Source of the DNA: Pirellulales bacterium
GTDB lineage: Bacteria; Planctomycetota; Planctomycetia; Pirellulales; Thermoguttaceae
Direction: 5' to 3'
Length of the DNA: 64,000 nt
Assembly (NCBI GenBank): GCA_016931995.1
Contig: JAFGDS010000093.1
Coordinates: 1 to 64,000 of the forward strand
Under the pieces are notes generated by a model that searched no databases, was not told the origin of the DNA, and saw only the letters and a list, made by a program, of their open reading frames with translations. Below, in pieces: positions 44,541-63,552 of the stretch; within the stretch, counting starts at the first letter, position 1, and each line of letters starts with the position of its first letter. Both the position numbers and the translations under genes were made by a program.

Positions 44541-46256
44541 ATGGGCGCCACCTCGAAACGACTCGAACCCAACCGCGTCCACCAGGGCGACTGCGCGCGC
44601 ATGCTCGCCCAGATCGAACCCGGCCGCGTCGATCTTGTTTTCGCCGATCCGCCGTTCAACATCGGCTACGACTACGACCTCTACAACGACCGCCGCTCGC
44701 GCGAGGAGTACCTCGATTGGTCGAAAGCGTGGATGGCGGGCGTCAAGCGGGCACTCAAACCCGACGGGACGTTCTGGCTGGCCATCGGCGACGAATACGC
44801 CGCCGAGCTGAAGCTCATCGCCCAGGACGCGCTTGGCTTCGCGTGCCGCGGTTGGGTCATTTGGTATTACACGTTCGGCGTCAACTGCGTCCGCGCGTTC
44901 AGCCGGTCGCACACGCATCTGTTCCACTTCGTCAAGGATCCGGACAAGTACACGTTCAACGCGGAGAATCCGGCCGTGCGCGTGCCGTCGGCGCGGCAGC
45001 TCGTGTACGCCGATCGCCGGGCGAACGCGAAGTGCCGCTTGCCCGACAACACGTGGATCCTCCGCCCGCAGGACGCGCCAGCCGGCGGCTTCGCCACGAT
45101 GCACGACACGTGGTATTTCGCCCGCGTGGCCGGCACGTTCAAGGAGCGAGAAGGCTTCCACGGCTGCCAGATGCCGGAGCAATTGCTGGGGCGGATCATC
45201 CGCATATCGAGCCGACCGCAGGAGCTGGTGCTCGACCCGTTCGCCGGCAGCGGCACGACGCTGGCCGTGGCCAAGAAGCTCGGCCGGCGTTGGCTGGGCT
45301 TCGAGCTATCGAAGGACTACGTCAAGCGGATCAACGAACGGCTCGCGCAAACGCGGGTGGGCGCGCCGCTGGATGGACCGGCCGATCCCGTCCGCAGCGC
45401 GCCCAAGACGGCCGCCGGCAAGCGGCGCGTCCGCATGCGCAACGGCCGGCCCGTGCCCCACCTGGACGAGCAGACCCAGCGGGGCATCGTGGACGCGTAC
45501 CGCGACGCGTGCATAGGCTGCTCCACCGACTACGTCCTGTGCGATCCGGAGCTTAACGCGGCGTTCGTGGCCGCGTGTCACAAGAAGGACCTGCGAGGCG
45601 ACGCGGAGCTGTGGAACCGTTTGCTCCTGCGGATCCGCAAGGCCGGCAAGCTTCCGCGGATGGAGCAGACGCGCCGGCGGCTCACGTTCGAGGAGATGGA
45701 CCCGTACAGCTTCGCCAGCGAGATTGCCATGCAGATGGTCGGCGTGACCTACGGCTACACGCTGGACGAGATACTCTGCAACCCGCTCGCGGCGGCGGAG
45801 TTCGACGATCTGGCCGCGCAGTTTGCCCCGGGTTTTTCGCCTTTTGAATACCGTTGGGCGGCCCTGTCGATCCGCAAGCGGGCACGGCAATCGCGGCGGC
45901 TTGCCCGCGAGCGATTCGCCGATTGGCTCAAGAAGCGTCTGCCGGCGGCCGTACCGCTGGAGAAGTGCCTGACGTCGAAATACGAAGGGCCGGGGGTGTA
46001 CGTGCTGCTCAATTCCGGCCACGATCTGTACGTGGGCGAGACGCTTGACTTCAAGCGACGCATCGAGCGCGTGGCGGACGCAGAGTGCTGGACGGCCTAT
46101 GCGCCGCGGGCCGTGCGGTTCATCTCCATCAACGACAAATTCAACGAGCAGCACGGTCTGCAATCGTTGTTGGTGGACCGCGTCCGGCCGCTGTTGAATT
46201 CGCCATTGCTCGGGTCGGACGGCGAACGGTCCCCTTCCCATTTGGGAGAGAAATGA
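44541..46256 (+). CDS. DNA methyltransferase fused to a GIY-YIG-like domain
   Basis: 571 residues, starting one base after the gyrB stop. The methyltransferase has DPPFNIGYDYD at 36-46 (motif IV) before DPFAGSGTTLAV at 232-243 (motif I). This order marks the beta class of N6-adenine or N4-cytosine enzymes. HLFHFVKD and WYFARVAGT are in the recognition region. Residues 290-470 are a helical, charged linker of unknown fold, with several Cys in CIGCSTDYVLC. The C-terminus (about 480-560) matches GIY-YIG nucleases: GPGVYVLLNSGHDLYVGETLDFKRRIERV-type spacing and a P..N ending. The usual catalytic Glu appears to be Gln (GLQSLLVD). No separate restriction gene is nearby. Confidence 0.85.
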   Translation: MGATSKRLEPNRVHQGDCARMLAQIEPGRVDLVFADPPFNIGYDYDLYNDRRSREEYLDWSKAWMAGVKRALKPDGTFWLAIGDEYAAELKLIAQDALGFACRGWVIWYYTFGVNCVRAFSRSHTHLFHFVKDPDKYTFNAENPAVRVPSARQLVYADRRANAKCRLPDNTWILRPQDAPAGGFATMHDTWYFARVAGTFKEREGFHGCQMPEQLLGRIIRISSRPQELVLDPFAGSGTTLAVAKKLGRRWLGFELSKDYVKRINERLAQTRVGAPLDGPADPVRSAPKTAAGKRRVRMRNGRPVPHLDEQTQRGIVDAYRDACIGCSTDYVLCDPELNAAFVAACHKKDLRGDAELWNRLLLRIRKAGKLPRMEQTRRRLTFEEMDPYSFASEIAMQMVGVTYGYTLDEILCNPLAAAEFDDLAAQFAPGFSPFEYRWAALSIRKRARQSRRLARERFADWLKKRLPAAVPLEKCLTSKYEGPGVYVLLNSGHDLYVGETLDFKRRIERVADAECWTAYAPRAVRFISINDKFNEQHGLQSLLVDRVRPLLNSPLLGSDGERSPSHLGEK

Positions 46257-53112: not shown

Positions 53113-53484
53113 TCAATCGAGCCCTATCTTCTTTCGAAGGATCCGATCGGCGATTTGTTTGAGCAACTCGACCGACGCCGATGTCAGACCATGCTCTTTC
53201 ATATTCCCGACTACCTCATCCCAGATGAACCGATCGCGGATTCTGTCGAGAAACTCATGCCCATCCCATGTTAGCTCTTGGGGGAGGACGTCGACGACGC
53301 GATCGCTCGTGGATGATTTCGTTACCTCACAGCGGAGGTATCCAGCCTCGTGGAGCAGGAGAAGATGGTACCTGATAAGACCATCATCATAGTCATGGAT
53401 CCTCGGCGTTTTTTTGAACTCTCTGGTTTCCTTCTCCTCGAAGAACAACAGCAACTCCCGAATCAACTCCATATCCCTTTTCAT
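53113..53484 (-). CDS. DUF2513 family protein
   Basis: 123 residues from the ATG at 53484 (MKRDMELIRELLLFFEEK). An ATG four codons upstream is less likely, since the family begins MKRD. The pattern MKRDMELIR, then LLLHEAGYLRCEV and LTWDGHEFLDRIRDRFIWDEV matches DUF2513 end to end. The fold is probably a winged helix. These genes are usually found on phages, plasmids and in genomic islands, and their function is unknown. GC is lower than in neighbours. It marks the beginning of the accessory region. Confidence 0.82.
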   Translation of the reverse strand: MKRDMELIRELLLFFEEKETREFKKTPRIHDYDDGLIRYHLLLLHEAGYLRCEVTKSSTSDRVVDVLPQELTWDGHEFLDRIRDRFIWDEVVGNMKEHGLTSASVELLKQIADRILRKKIGLD

Positions 53485-53518
53485 GATTGAGTCCACTCAG
53501 AAAGGAGGCCATGAGGAG

Positions 53519-55330: not shown

Positions 55331-56209
55331 TCACACCCGCACGGCGCAGGGTTTCCGCCAGACCCGGTGGCCTTCGCCGAGCACCACGAAGGTGGAGAAG
55401 TAATACTTCCCGGCGTCTGGCTCGGTCGTCGCGCGTGCGCCGACGGTGTGGACGCCGGCCACGCGGCGGTCCTCGGCGACGTGCATGTGGCCGTGCAGGA
55501 CCAGGCGCACCCGATGGGTAATGCACAAAAGCCGCAGCGCGCGGCGTTGGTCCCGTGGGATCTGATGCGTCGCCCGGCCCAGCGGACCCGTCGGCCGCTG
55601 TCCGCGTTGGGCGGCCGTTCGGTCCTCGGGGATATTCGGGCTGTGATGAAGGAGCACGATCTTCACCGGGACGTCGCGATGGACGTGCAGCTTGTTGGCC
55701 AGGTCCTGGAGCTGATAGTAGCCAATCCGGCCCAAGGCATTGTCCGCCGCCGAAAAATTGCCGAGGTTATTGGAGTTCAAGCCGAAGACGGCCACCCTTG
55801 GGTCCGGGCTTCGCGCCCACGGCAGTTTCGTCGGCTGATTACCCAGCCGCAAACCCGCCGCCGCCTTTGCCCAGTCCGCCCGGGCATCGGCGTTCCACGG
55901 AGCGCGAACGCCCAGGCAGCACACGTCGTGATTGCCCGGCACAACGAGCGCGCGGTGCGAGAGGCCAGCCTCGGCCAGGGCGTTCCAGAAGACCTTCCAC
56001 GCGTCGATCTCTCCGCGATCGGCGATATCGCCCGTGAAAACGATCAAGTCGGCCCGCTGGATGGCCGGCGTCCGGACGATCTTGCGAAACGCCGCGTTCA
56101 TTCCCCGCAGCCGGCCAAACAGCCTCGTCTCCGATCGCGCCGCGCGATCGCTCGCGGTCAGATGCAGGTCCGATAGATGCGCGATCCGAAAGGGTCTTGG
56201 TTTGGGCAC
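55331..56209 (-). CDS. Calcineurin-like metallophosphoesterase (CpdA-like)
   Basis: 292 residues from a GTG at 56209 (PKPRPFRIAHLSDLHLTAS), with AGGA upstream. A longer frame to 56431 would translate a palindrome and is rejected. Metal motifs are D14 and H16 in SDLHL, GD in FTGDIADRG, GNHD in VPGNHDV, then HHSP and HGHMH. No signal peptide is seen, so it works in the cytoplasm, unlike the phosphoesterase at 3117. CpdA-like members hydrolyse cyclic nucleotides or other phosphodiesters. Confidence 0.88.
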   Translation of the reverse strand: MPKPRPFRIAHLSDLHLTASDRAARSETRLFGRLRGMNAAFRKIVRTPAIQRADLIVFTGDIADRGEIDAWKVFWNALAEAGLSHRALVVPGNHDVCCLGVRAPWNADARADWAKAAAGLRLGNQPTKLPWARSPDPRVAVFGLNSNNLGNFSAADNALGRIGYYQLQDLANKLHVHRDVPVKIVLLHHSPNIPEDRTAAQRGQRPTGPLGRATHQIPRDQRRALRLLCITHRVRLVLHGHMHVAEDRRVAGVHTVGARATTEPDAGKYYFSTFVVLGEGHRVWRKPCAVRV

Positions 56210-56290
56210 GGGATTATCCTCCGTCCGTCGGTGTCCTTGTCGCGGCGCCGGGCGGCCAAGCTGCAATTCGGGGGTTGTACTGAATTTTGT

Positions 56291-56343
56291 GGCACGGGCT
56301 TCCAGCCCGTGAAGAAACACGGCCAAGATGGCCGTGCCACATT
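56291..56343. repeat. TGGCACGGGC palindrome
   Basis: Two hairpins in a row: CACGGGCTTCCAGCCCGTG and ACGGCCAAGATGGCCGT, with outer TGGCACGG / CCGTGCCA. It lies between the divergent phosphoesterase and HNH-NTPase genes. It is another dispersed repeat. Confidence 0.7.
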
Positions 56344-56496
56344 GGTTGACACAAAATTCCGCACAGCCCCCAATCCGCGCCCCGCCCGGCTCCGCGGATC
56401 CCGTCTCTTGACGCCATCGGGTGGGCGCCATTACAACAAAGGACGGGTGCCGTTTCCATCATAACGACCCCTTCGGCAAGCTGCAAAGGTGGGGCC

Positions 56497-59400
56497 ATGG
56501 CCAAGGCGAACGGACCGACGCGGCCTTCCGAGCGGACGGTGAAGCGGCTCTTCGCCCTCTCCGGGAACCAATGCGCCTTTCCCGGGTGCGACCGTCACCT
56601 GGTCGACCCGACCAGTGGCTCCGTCCTCGGACAGATCTGCCACATCAAGGGCGACAAGGAAGGCGCCGCGCGTTACGACGCCTCCCAGACGAACCGCGAG
56701 CGGCACGGGTTCGACAACCTCATTCTGCTCTGCGGCGTTCACCACAAGATCATCGACGACGACGGGCAAACGTACACGGTCGATCGCTTGAGGGAGATGA
56801 AGGCGACCCACGAGACACAACACCGCGACGCCCCGGTGTCGATGAACCACGCCACCGCGAAACAGTTCATCTTGAACATCTCGAACGTCGTCCAGATCGC
56901 CGACACCATCACCAACGTCTTCTCCGCGCCGTCGCCGGTCGACCTTGCCGAACTGCTGACGCCCAACGCCAGTCCGCTGCCCCCCAACGTCCGCAACCCG
57001 GCCTCGCTCTTGAACGCCCGCCACCAGGTCGTCCCCTTCCTCGACGCGCCGCGCCAGCGCGAGATGGAGGCGATCGAGACGTGGCGCGCGGCGGACGAGC
57101 CGGCCAGCGTCCGGCTCTTCGTCGGGCCCGGGGGAACGGGCAAGACGCGGCTGTTTATCGAGTGGGTCAAGCGGCTCTCGCGGCGCGGCTGGCGGGCTGG
57201 CTTCCTCCGCGAGCGGCGCGCCGCCGCGGAACTGGACGCCCTGGTGGCGTGCCCCGACCCGCTCTTGGTCGTCGTCGACTATGCCGAGGCGCGGCCCGAC
57301 GTGCTGGAGCTGCTGCGGCGGGCGGCGCGCCGGCCGGCCGCGGGGGCCGTGCTCCGCGTGGCCCTCTTGGCGCGGGAGGTCGCCGACTGGTGGCCCGCCC
57401 TCGCCCAGCAAGACGCCGACGTGGCCCCGCTGCTCGCGCGGCACGAGCCGCTGCGGCTTGCGCCCGTGCCGCTGGAAGGCACGCTCCGGCAAGAGGCCTT
57501 CGCGGCGGCGGTCCGGGCTTTCGACGAGACCCGCAAGGACCGGCAAATCGAGAACGGTCGCGAGTCGGAAGGGGACCGTCCCGTTGTCGCCGCGCAAAAA
57601 TCGGGACGGTCCCCCGCTTCTCCGGACCTGTCCGACCGTCGCTTTGGCCAGATGCTCTATTTGCACATGGCCGCGCTGGCGCGCGTGGAAGGGCTGTCCT
57701 TGTCGGCCGACTCGCTCTTGGACGACGTCGTCGCGCACGAAGGGCGGTATTGGTTGCGGCGTTATCCCGAACGGTATCCCGCCGATCCGCTGGACCGCTG
57801 CGCCTTCGCGGCTGGGGCCCGCCGCGTGGTCGCCGCGGCGACGTTGCTGGGCGGCCTGCCGACCGTCGAGGCGGTCAAGCGAACGATTCAGTGTGTCGAC
57901 GGGCCTCTTTTGAAAAACTTCCCCGAGTTTCTGCGGTGGCTCTACCCGGGCCGGGGAGGCCCCCAATCCCAGGATGCCTTCGTGGCACCGCTGGAACCCG
58001 ATCTCTTGGGGCAGGCCCTGGTGGCGCGGGCGCTCTCCGACCGCGCGACGCGCGAGGATTACCTCGATCGGGTCTTTGACGACGCCGACGCGCCGTCGAC
58101 GACCAACGGCTTCCTCGTTCTGGGCCGTCTCGCGGAAGACCGGCCCGAGGCAAGGCCCTGGATCGAGCGGGCGCTGGGCCGCGACGTTCCGGCCCGCGCG
58201 GAGGCCGCCTTCGCCGCCGCGCTCGCGCTGGGCGAGAAAACGGCCGGGTCTCCCCTGGGCCTCGTCCTGGCCTCGGCCCTCCAGCGCGAGGGCACGACCG
58301 AGCTTGCCCGGGCGTTTGAGGACCGTTTGCCCAAAGAAACGGTTTCGCTTCGAGAACTGCGCGTCTGGACGGTGTGGCGACTCTTGGAGCAATTCCCAGA
58401 AGACCAAACCACGGAGGAGGCACTCCCGGAACGCGCACGCCTGCTTAACAATCTGGGCGTCTTCCTCAGCGAGTTGGGACGGCGGGAGGAAGCCCTCGAG
58501 GCGACGCGCGACGCGGTGGAGATCCGCCGCGCGCTGGCTCGGGGACGGCGTGACGCCTTCCTGCCGCACCTGGCTGGGAGCCTTAACAACTTGAGCGCTC
58601 GTCTGAGTGAGTTAGGTCAGCGCGAAGAAGCCTTGGAGGCGGCAAGCGAATCGGTGGAGATTCGCCGCGAGTTGGTCCGCCAAGGGGGTCACGCCTTCCT
58701 GCCGGACCTGGCCAGGAGCCTCAACAACCTGGGCATTCGCCTGAGCGAGTTGGCTCGGCAAGAGGAAGCCCTGCAGGCGACACAGGAAGCTGTCAAGCAC
58801 TACCGCACATTGACGGGCAAGCGGTGCAGTGTCTTCCTGGGGGACTTGGCTAGGAGCCTCAGCAACCTGGGCAACTGCCTTAGCGAACTGGGTCGGTTGG
58901 AGGAAGCATTGAAGGTGACGCGTGAATCCGTGAAGCACTACCGCACGCTGTCCCGCCAGCGTCCGGACGCTTTCCTGCCGGTCCTGATGGGCACCCTCAG
59001 CAACCTGGGCAATCGCCTCGGCGAGCTGGGTCGGTGGGAGGAAGCCCTTGAGGCGGCCCATGAAGCGGTGGAGTGCTACGGCGCGTTGGCCGCAAAGAGG
59101 CCCGACGCCTTCCTGCCCCACCTGGCGATGAGCCTCAACAACCTGGGTGGTGTCCTGAGTGCTCTGGGTCGGTGGGAGGAAGCGCTCGAGGCTACACGCG
59201 AAGCCGTGGAGATTCGCCGCCCGCTGGCCGGGCGGTGGCGCGACGCGTTCTCGCCGGATCTCGCAGGGAGCCTCGACAACCTGGGCCGTTGCCTGGGTGC
59301 CCTGGGGCAGGAGGAGGAAGCGCGGAAAGCGACCGACGAGGCGGCGGAGATCCGCCGCGCTCGTGCAAGCAAGCGGCCCGACGCTGGGGAGCCGCGGTAG
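56497..59400 (+). CDS. HNH nuclease - STAND-like NTPase - TPR protein
   Basis: 967 residues from the ATG at 56497. Residues 15-110 form an HNH domain with zinc ligands C26, C31, C79 and H82 and catalytic H49 (GQICHI), N74 (FDNLILLC) and H83. Residues 125-145 (ISNVVQIADTITNVFS) look like a short coil. The NTPase has Walker A GPGGTGKTR at 210-218 and Walker B PLLVVVDYAEARPD, D261. Residues about 357-373 are encoded by the palindromic element at 57569. Residues 650-967 are seven 46-residue TPRs. Nuclease-NTPase-repeat order is that of STAND antiviral sensors (Avs-like): repeats bind a phage protein, the NTPase assembles, the nuclease degrades DNA. That role is inferred; no partner genes are near. 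Confidence 0.82.
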   Translation: MAKANGPTRPSERTVKRLFALSGNQCAFPGCDRHLVDPTSGSVLGQICHIKGDKEGAARYDASQTNRERHGFDNLILLCGVHHKIIDDDGQTYTVDRLREMKATHETQHRDAPVSMNHATAKQFILNISNVVQIADTITNVFSAPSPVDLAELLTPNASPLPPNVRNPASLLNARHQVVPFLDAPRQREMEAIETWRAADEPASVRLFVGPGGTGKTRLFIEWVKRLSRRGWRAGFLRERRAAAELDALVACPDPLLVVVDYAEARPDVLELLRRAARRPAAGAVLRVALLAREVADWWPALAQQDADVAPLLARHEPLRLAPVPLEGTLRQEAFAAAVRAFDETRKDRQIENGRESEGDRPVVAAQKSGRSPASPDLSDRRFGQMLYLHMAALARVEGLSLSADSLLDDVVAHEGRYWLRRYPERYPADPLDRCAFAAGARRVVAAATLLGGLPTVEAVKRTIQCVDGPLLKNFPEFLRWLYPGRGGPQSQDAFVAPLEPDLLGQALVARALSDRATREDYLDRVFDDADAPSTTNGFLVLGRLAEDRPEARPWIERALGRDVPARAEAAFAAALALGEKTAGSPLGLVLASALQREGTTELARAFEDRLPKETVSLRELRVWTVWRLLEQFPEDQTTEEALPERARLLNNLGVFLSELGRREEALEATRDAVEIRRALARGRRDAFLPHLAGSLNNLSARLSELGQREEALEAASESVEIRRELVRQGGHAFLPDLARSLNNLGIRLSELARQEEALQATQEAVKHYRTLTGKRCSVFLGDLARSLSNLGNCLSELGRLEEALKVTRESVKHYRTLSRQRPDAFLPVLMGTLSNLGNRLGELGRWEEALEAAHEAVECYGALAAKRPDAFLPHLAMSLNNLGGVLSALGRWEEALEATREAVEIRRPLAGRWRDAFSPDLAGSLDNLGRCLGALGQEEEARKATDEAAEIRRARASKRPDAGEPR
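57569..57614. repeat. In-frame palindromic element, copy C
   Basis: This palindrome is AAGGGGACCGTCCCG... with right arm CGGGACGGTCCCC, translated as EGDRPVVAAQKSGRSP within the NTPase domain. It aligns with copies A and B (EGDsPifAetriGtvP), yet sits in an unrelated gene 45 kb away. Confidence 0.75.
58444..59400 (+). repeat. Seven tandem 138-bp TPR-coding repeats
   Basis: Units begin at 58444, 58582, 58720, 58858, 58996, 59134 and 59272. Each is 46 codons and opens with LNNLG or LSNLG. The consensus LNNLG..LSELGR.EEAL then EA..AVEIRR is of the kinesin-light-chain TPR type. The seventh is short. Repeats differ at the surface, as expected of a binding array. Confidence 0.9.
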
Positions 59401-61867: not shown

Positions 61868-62713
61868 GTGACTGCAGCGCACGGGTCATCCTGGCAACCG
61901 ACGGCCATTCGGCATCATATCAAGAGTCTGCCTACTTCGGCGGGTACGATGCGTGTCCGCACGGATCTTGGCGACGGTTATCTCAAGGCAATGGGGAATC
62001 CGGCCGGCGAACACGCCTTGGCGTGCGAATTGGTGGGAACACAGCTCGCCGCGTGGTTTGGATTGCCCGTATTTGACTTTGCCATCATCGACGTCATCGA
62101 AGCGGACTCGCTCCCGTTTGCCGGAGGCGGATTTGCCCAACCGGGGCCCGCGTTCATCACGCGCGCCGAGAAGGGGGAACCGTGGTCCGGCAAGGTGCGA
62201 GAACTCAAGCGGCTGACGAATCCCGAAGACATCAGCCGTCTGATTGTGTTTGACACGTGGACCCTCAATTGCGACCGGCACGTGTCGGACCGATCCCGAA
62301 GGCCGAACAGGAATAACGTGTTCCTCAGCGAAGAAGCGCCAAGGGGCAAATTCCGCTTGCGAGCCATGGACCACACGCATTGCTTTGACTCTCGTCCCCA
62401 TTTGTCCACTCAGATTGCGAATATCGACCGCATCCGGGATCCACGCGTCTTTGGGTTCTTTCCCGAGTTCCAGCAATTCTTGAACAAGGAAGTGGTTGCC
62501 CGGTGTACCGGTCGGCTCCGGCAAGTAACTCAACAAGCACTTGCCGATATTGCGCAAACGATACCACCAGAATGGGACGTCGACTCGCGTGCTAAAGAAG
62601 CCCTCGTCTCACTCCTGCTGGGGAGGGCCAGTTTTGTCGCGGAGCGTATAATTAAGAGTCTGTGGGAACAGAGGGACTTTGGATTCATGCGGGAGTCGGA
62701 GGACGACCAATGA
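61868..62713 (+). CDS. HipA-like kinase (HipA_2 type)
   Basis: 281 residues from a GTG at 61868. N-terminal lobe: GTMRVRTDLGDGYLKAMGNPAGEHALACELVG. The catalytic segment is VFDTWTLNCDRHVSD with N134 and D136. A metal-binding D168 lies in AMDHTHCFD. This is the short HipA_2 version (about 250 residues) rather than the 430-residue HipA toxin, and lacks the N-terminal extension. Such kinases phosphorylate a translation factor or another protein in toxin-antitoxin-like systems. Its last codon overlaps the next gene by ATGA (62710-62713). GC content is lower than in the core genes. Confidence 0.82.
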   Translation: MTAAHGSSWQPTAIRHHIKSLPTSAGTMRVRTDLGDGYLKAMGNPAGEHALACELVGTQLAAWFGLPVFDFAIIDVIEADSLPFAGGGFAQPGPAFITRAEKGEPWSGKVRELKRLTNPEDISRLIVFDTWTLNCDRHVSDRSRRPNRNNVFLSEEAPRGKFRLRAMDHTHCFDSRPHLSTQIANIDRIRDPRVFGFFPEFQQFLNKEVVARCTGRLRQVTQQALADIAQTIPPEWDVDSRAKEALVSLLLGRASFVAERIIKSLWEQRDFGFMRESEDDQ

Positions 62714-63552
62714 CATTCATGACGGGGTATTACTGTCTGATCCAATACTGTCCTGACCCCACGCGATTGGAGGCCGCGACGATCGGGGTGCTGCTATTCT
62801 GTCCAGAGCAAGGGTTTCTCAAGGCCCGCACGGCGCAGGATAACCGCCGCATTCGACAGTTTTTCGGACGGGAAGGGCATGACTGGTCGCGCATCAACTC
62901 GTTCAAGAAAGCCATCGAAGAACGACTAGAGGTCGAACAACCGGAAATGAGGTCGGTAGCAGACCTCGAAGCCTTCATTGCCCTTCGGGCAAATCAGATC
63001 GTGTTTACGCCTCCACGAGCGATGCGCGTGGCCAAACCAGAGGATGACCTGCAAAGGATTTTTGAAGAAGTGGTCGGTGGCGTTTATCGGAAAGAACCGG
63101 GGCGGAGCTTCAAAAAAGTCGTTGACGAACGCCTTCGCAGGGCTGGCCTTCAGCGCAAACTCCGAAGGGACATCAACGTCGAGGTCCCGGTCTTCAAACG
63201 GCAGGTGTCAATCCCGTACGGCTTTCAGAATGGCCGGTTCAACTTGATCCAACTGGTTCAATTCCTCACCACGAACGCGGACCAAGCCATCTACACGGCG
63301 TGTCGTTATGCGGCCGAAGGGCGATCGCTGTGGAAGAATCCGCATCCAGAATATGGGAAACTGAAGCTCGTGATCGTGGGCGAGTTCCTCCCGGAGCGCC
63401 CGCAAACGAAAGACGAAGTCCGTCTCGTATTCAATGAAATGGATAGTCACGTGGATCTTTTTGCCACGAGTGAACTTGACGGGCTGATTAGTGAGATTCG
63501 AACCACCGGCAAAGACATCCTTGACGATCCGACGAACGCGACGACAGAGTAA
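62710..63552 (+). CDS. DUF3037 family protein
   Basis: 280 residues from the ATG at 62710, overlapping the kinase stop. The family opening YYCLIQYCPDPTRLEAATIGVLLFCP is clear. Further regions are helical with many charged residues, and the end (DLFATSELDGLISEIRTTG) is ordinary. DUF3037 genes are often found next to HipA_2 kinases, so this protein is a likely antitoxin, substrate or partner of the kinase. The mechanism is not established. The codon usage matches the kinase, so the two were probably acquired together. Confidence 0.82.
   Translation: MTFMTGYYCLIQYCPDPTRLEAATIGVLLFCPEQGFLKARTAQDNRRIRQFFGREGHDWSRINSFKKAIEERLEVEQPEMRSVADLEAFIALRANQIVFTPPRAMRVAKPEDDLQRIFEEVVGGVYRKEPGRSFKKVVDERLRRAGLQRKLRRDINVEVPVFKRQVSIPYGFQNGRFNLIQLVQFLTTNADQAIYTACRYAAEGRSLWKNPHPEYGKLKLVIVGEFLPERPQTKDEVRLVFNEMDSHVDLFATSELDGLISEIRTTGKDILDDPTNATTE

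Follow-up and report, generated by a model that had tools for sequence, protein, structure and literature searches.

The window, a stretch of 64,000 nucleotides of a Pirellulales contig, contains an intact open reading frame encoding a protein of 967 amino acids, whose ATG start codon sits after AAAGGTGG. Pfam, PADLOC and AlphaFold together revealed the order of its parts, namely an HNH effector domain followed by an NTPase and a repeat array (Table 1). In the profile searches Pfam recognised the repeats strongly as TPRs and other parts weakly, and PADLOC recognised the N-terminus as HNH. A segment with low confidence in the AlphaFold model, which is probably a flexible linker, connects the HNH domain with the NTPase. 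The immediate neighbours of the gene, a phosphoesterase and an amidohydrolase, look metabolic. The phosphoesterase gene (55331-56428, minus strand) is calcineurin-like and divergently oriented; it matches the NCBIfam model DS9_1_antiphage with E 9e-14, far below the cut-off, and its translation probably begins only ~75 residues into the called reading frame. The divergent promoter region carries an inverted-repeat element which occurs elsewhere in the genome and probably lies outside the system.

Table 1. Position of the HNH-STAND-TPR gene, its domains and motifs, and features nearby (window coordinates).
Feature	Position	Strand	Evidence
HNH-STAND-TPR protein, 967 aa	56497..59400	+	ORF; full-length AlphaFold model pLDDT 88.3, pTM 0.81
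Cap5-class HNH nuclease domain, residues 12-110	56530..56826	+	PADLOC, PDB matches, residue conservation
Linker, probably flexible, residues 111-178	56827..57030	+	Low pLDDT, mostly <55 (AlphaFold)
STAND-type ATPase and helical domains, residues 179-640	57031..58416	+	NTPase-only model, structure alignments
Walker A GPGGTGKT (210-217)	57124..57147	+	K216 in 50/52 aligned rows
Walker B LLVVVDYAE (256-264)	57262..57288	+	D261 in 50/50 aligned ATPase rows
R293, end of LLLAR strand (sensor-1 position)	57373..57375	+	R in 52/52 rows
Seven TPRs of 46 residues (642-959)	58420..59373	+	Periodicity; Pfam TPR_10 2e-30; helix pairs in model
HipA_2 kinase and DUF3037 pair	61868..63552	+	Resembles PADLOC candidate PDC-M66A/B (phage defence); nearest candidate defence neighbour
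102-bp inverted-repeat element, divergent promoter region	56270..56371	.	7 copies or fragments in genome, 86-100% identity

The N-terminus matched the PADLOC models PDC-M68A (1.7e-30), SAVED_HNH (9e-19) and SduA (1e-17), and a phmmer search against solved structures identified the HNH nuclease 9om4 (E 2.8e-18) and Cap5 (7rwm, 8e-10). A preliminary description of this DNA had named H49, N74 and H83 as HNH motif residues and C26, C31, C79 and H82 as further residues, which are likely zinc ligands. An alignment of ten HNH sequences shows no variation at H49, N74, C79, H83, D87, K102 or E106 and very little at C26 and H82. The HNH class and these residues are common to the 967-aa protein, the CBASS effector Cap5, which consists of HNH and SAVED, and 9om4. 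In Cap5, however, binding of a cyclic nucleotide to SAVED acts as the switch, whereas the HNH domain described here is joined to a putative STAND-TPR sensor. Neither a SAVED domain nor a CD-NTase gene was found in the scanned neighbours, and the matches to the PADLOC effector and SAVED_HNH models span only residues 10-135 of the protein. In view of the missing SAVED domain, assignment of the protein to CBASS/Cap5 was rejected. The same HNH class also occurs, with 30% identity, in a 'putative lysogenic conversion protein' of the P2-like phage P2-EC46 (AJ512680.1).

As the TPRs swamped a structure search with the full-length model, the ATPase was modelled alone (pLDDT 91.3, pTM 0.90). Its best structural partners in Foldseek and VIA-align were NLRC4, EfAvs5, MalT, NRC2, NLRP9, NLRP7 and plant NRC proteins, with VIA-align Z values of 14.7 for NLRC4 (rmsd 4.6, 312 residues), 13.8 for EfAvs5, 13.4 for MalT and 13.2 for NRC2. 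The difference in Z between STAND and other AAA+ chains is small, and the argument therefore rests on the domain order and on the aligned length, which reached 270-320 residues for several receptors as compared to ~190 for generic AAA+ proteins. Judged from the model, the assignment of the ATPase to the STAND NTPases of the NLR/Avs superfamily is strongly supported. The Walker A motif and the Walker B aspartate D261 named in the preliminary description were both recovered and are conserved (Table 1). The Pfam family nSTAND_NTPase5 (PF25199) was rejected as a name for the domain because the match, which is probably driven by the Walker motifs, reached just 23-27 bits at a curated cut-off of 34 bits, and matches below the cut-off were present in 14 of 14 control genomes. 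A comparison of the ATPase with viral contigs gave no match.

The C-terminal repeat units start at residues 649, 695, 741, 787, 833, 879 and 925. Compared with itself at a shift of 46 residues, the sequence gives an identity of 0.58, whereas none of 1000 shuffled versions exceeded 0.146, and the AlphaFold model shows helix pairs matching the units at a pLDDT of ~97. Both the number and the length of the repeats were thus read correctly at the outset.

Relatives from Streptomyces are homologous over the ATPase and the TPRs, with ~36% identity across ~820 aa. An alignment of seven rows had diverged too far to be used in a genome scan, but a profile built from four sequences worked; it was scanned against ~85,000 genomes and the best 80 loci were taken. 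Their N-termini, classed by motif and reading and in six cases by Pfam, comprise ~53 trypsins, 6 TIR/SEFIR domains, 3 two-TM proteins, a GT4-conflict glycosyltransferase and others, while in some members nothing was recognised in this slot; an HNH domain was found in none of the 80. As read from these sequences, the ATPase-TPR family is modular and, among the best 80 loci, mostly actinobacterial. A gene for trypco2, a partner of the trypco class described by Kaur et al. 2020 (PMC7159879), lies beside 49 of the 53 trypsin-type loci and beside none of the 27 others, and no trypco2 reading frame was found in the window, which makes the claim of a single-gene system plausible. The trypsin-STAND-TPR proteins of Streptomyces therefore share a homologous ATPase and 46-residue TPRs with the 967-aa protein, but differ by their N-terminal trypsin and the adjacent trypco2 gene. 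Relatives of the ATPase-TPR part were also found on Streptomyces plasmids.

In a quick tree of the ATPases, based on a sample biased to actinobacteria and to patterns of the four sequences, the window protein forms a clade (SH-aLRT 99) with two proteins, one from Phycisphaerales with a Na/Pi cotransporter and the other from a deltaproteobacterium with a SEFIR domain that matches the PADLOC bSEFIR model with E 8e-20. As this closest clade holds three domain sets (HNH, SEFIR, Na/Pi cotransporter), the HNH domain looks like an effector swap, with the N-terminal domain apparently exchanged within the family. In the Phycisphaerales protein (L027, 6599-10180, a reading frame of 1194 aa with the same ATPase and a TPR) the cotransporter and PhoU domains are located C-terminally of the ATPase, which may represent an unusual membrane output or a control of the transporter. 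Together with the fold matches to NLRC4, Avs5, MalT and NRC2, the interchangeable N-terminal effectors strongly support the effector-NTPase-repeat STAND architecture that had been proposed from the start.

The HNH class is present in 22 of 392 planctomycete genomes, the one studied here included. In two planctomycete loci, L130 (48% identity in HNH) and L131, it is fused to a STAND-like ATPase as in the window protein, but these ATPases belong to other clades (AAA_16/nSTAND3-like; nSTAND_NTPase5 above the cut-off) and a 46-residue TPR array was not detected. Most of the HNH proteins obtained in searches of ~300 actinobacterial and ~280 deltaproteobacterial genomes were shorter, and four of the longer reading frames, read by eye, showed no recognisable STAND module. 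The exact combination of HNH with this ATPase and TPRs thus has one example among everything searched, and no orthologue with the same pair of HNH and ATPase was found in the genomes searched. An HNH effector as such is not a new idea, since HNH is already listed among the interchangeable N-terminal effectors of other prokaryotic conflict proteins (PMC8195603) and is paired with STAND-like ATPases in L130 and L131. No paper on the exact HNH-STAND-TPR protein was found in the open-access literature, and no experiment on any member of the ATPase-TPR family in the literature searched. Avs5 and other Avs proteins have the effector-STAND-repeat order in common with the 967-aa protein, and EfAvs5 also resembles its ATPase in fold. 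Avs5, however, carries Sir2 and nSTAND3 (PMC12931631), whereas the window protein carries HNH, and none of its PADLOC matches with E<=1 was to an Avs model. The earlier proposal that an HNH version lies outside the described Avs types is consistent with PADLOC and with the open-access literature searched. We read the protein as a new effector combination within an established type of bacterial immune protein rather than as a type of its own.

The gene had been described as part of an accessory stretch with DUF2513 and a HipA-like kinase. These genes are indeed nearby, DUF2513 3 kb upstream and HipA_2 with DUF3037 2.5 kb downstream, but they are not immediate neighbours, and their GC3 (0.62-0.66) differs from the host-like value of 0.84 of the HNH-STAND-TPR gene. 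They need therefore not have arrived together with this gene, for which recent mobility is not evident. The HipA_2 and DUF3037 pair is probably separate from it and, because of its low GC3, likely a recent arrival. In a set of 100 genomes made up of the nearest relatives and its own, the ATPase matched its own genome solely and has no paralogue there, and we thus regard the gene as accessory. The expectation that homologues would lie beside defence genes was not confirmed, as the flanks of 15 relatives contained almost no known defence genes and generic kinase-type matches in 2 of 68 reading frames, in a PADLOC scan of mechanically called reading frames from GC-rich DNA, judged from the 25 highest-ranking of 54 families and with no control set. 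The scarcity of such genes weakens a role in defence but does not refute it. Three further observations concern this region and related loci: the DUF2513 gene (53113-53496, minus strand) has 50% GC within a region of 65% GC, an HNH relative adjoins a DUF2513 gene on a Novosphingobium plasmid, and positions 44541-46256 of the window encode an N6_N4 DNA methyltransferase whose C-terminus reads GIY-YIG-like (GVYVLLNSGHDLYVGET), a possible methylase-nuclease fusion.

We consider it about 60% probable that the protein acts as an invader-triggered, NLR/Avs-like STAND sensor with an HNH DNase output on a single chain. This reading is favoured by the receptor-like alignments of the ATPase model, by the known conflict effectors which relatives carry in the N-terminal slot (trypsin with trypco2, TIR/SEFIR, GT4-conflict), by the three domain sets of the closest clade, by the intact catalytic residues of an HNH domain closest to the nucleases of PADLOC defence models, by the recurrence of the HNH-STAND pairing in L130 and L131 and by the accessory distribution. 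The metabolic-looking neighbours, the defence-poor flanks, the host-like GC3 and the single example of the exact combination argue against it. The sequences and models show the domain make-up, the conserved motifs, the STAND fold of the model and the modular N-terminal slot; by analogy, we infer a ligand, oligomerisation, DNase activity and an antiphage role. At rest, the STAND ATPase would be closed by the TPR arm and keep the HNH domains separate. The superhelix of seven TPRs would bind a ligand of the invader, in all likelihood a protein of a phage, upon which the ATPase would exchange nucleotide and oligomerise. The oligomer would bring the HNH domains together to form an active DNase, a step suggested by Avs/NLR proteins and by the dimer-to-tetramer transition which activates Cap5 HNH domains (PMC12804361). 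Cleavage of phage DNA, host DNA or both would then lead to abortive infection.

The main rival retains the sensor but assigns it a different trigger, either plasmids and other mobile elements or, in a bacterium that aggregates, programmed cell death or kin discrimination. Multicellular bacteria, with planctomycetes among their number, show an enrichment of related conflict systems (PMC7159879), and both the plasmid-borne relatives and the absence of a phage-defence neighbourhood from the 15 flanks fit such a trigger. The HNH class and the other effectors of the family are nevertheless common to antiphage systems, and we regard a non-phage trigger as unlikely, though worth serious consideration. 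STAND domains are members of the ORC/Cdc6-like ATPases, ORC/RFC chains were among the structure matches, and restriction systems combining HNH with an NTPase exist (GmrSD, SspE). The ATPase might accordingly place the HNH domain directly on foreign DNA, while the TPRs would provide a scaffold for assembly instead of sensing a ligand. Such a restriction-like enzyme seems improbable, as no DNA-reading domain was found in the protein and relatives hold proteases, TIR domains or glycosyltransferases in the N-terminal slot, so that the ATPase-TPR module cannot serve exclusively as a motor for DNA cutting. It is very improbable that the gene is decayed, with an inactive HNH domain, or encodes a MalT-like switch of transcription or signalling: one of the folds nearest to the ATPase is that of MalT and the combination is known from a single example, but the HNH and Walker residues are all intact, the reading frame is undamaged and a DNA-binding output domain is lacking.

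Returning to the invader-triggered sensor, one can tentatively propose a one-gene antiphage system, as yet undescribed, in which an NLR-like STAND-TPR receptor directly controls a Cap5-class HNH nuclease that was formerly governed by a cyclic nucleotide. The family around it would use one switch for exchangeable outputs of the nuclease, protease, NADase-type and membrane kinds. A single chain joins two well-studied immune parts, a Cap5-type HNH nuclease and an NLR-like STAND receptor. It draws attention to STAND-TPR receptors of actinobacteria and planctomycetes, a large and apparently untested family with a visibly interchangeable effector slot. If these proteins are active, the same switch combined with different outputs would allow a direct test of how modular the effectors of NLR-like proteins are.
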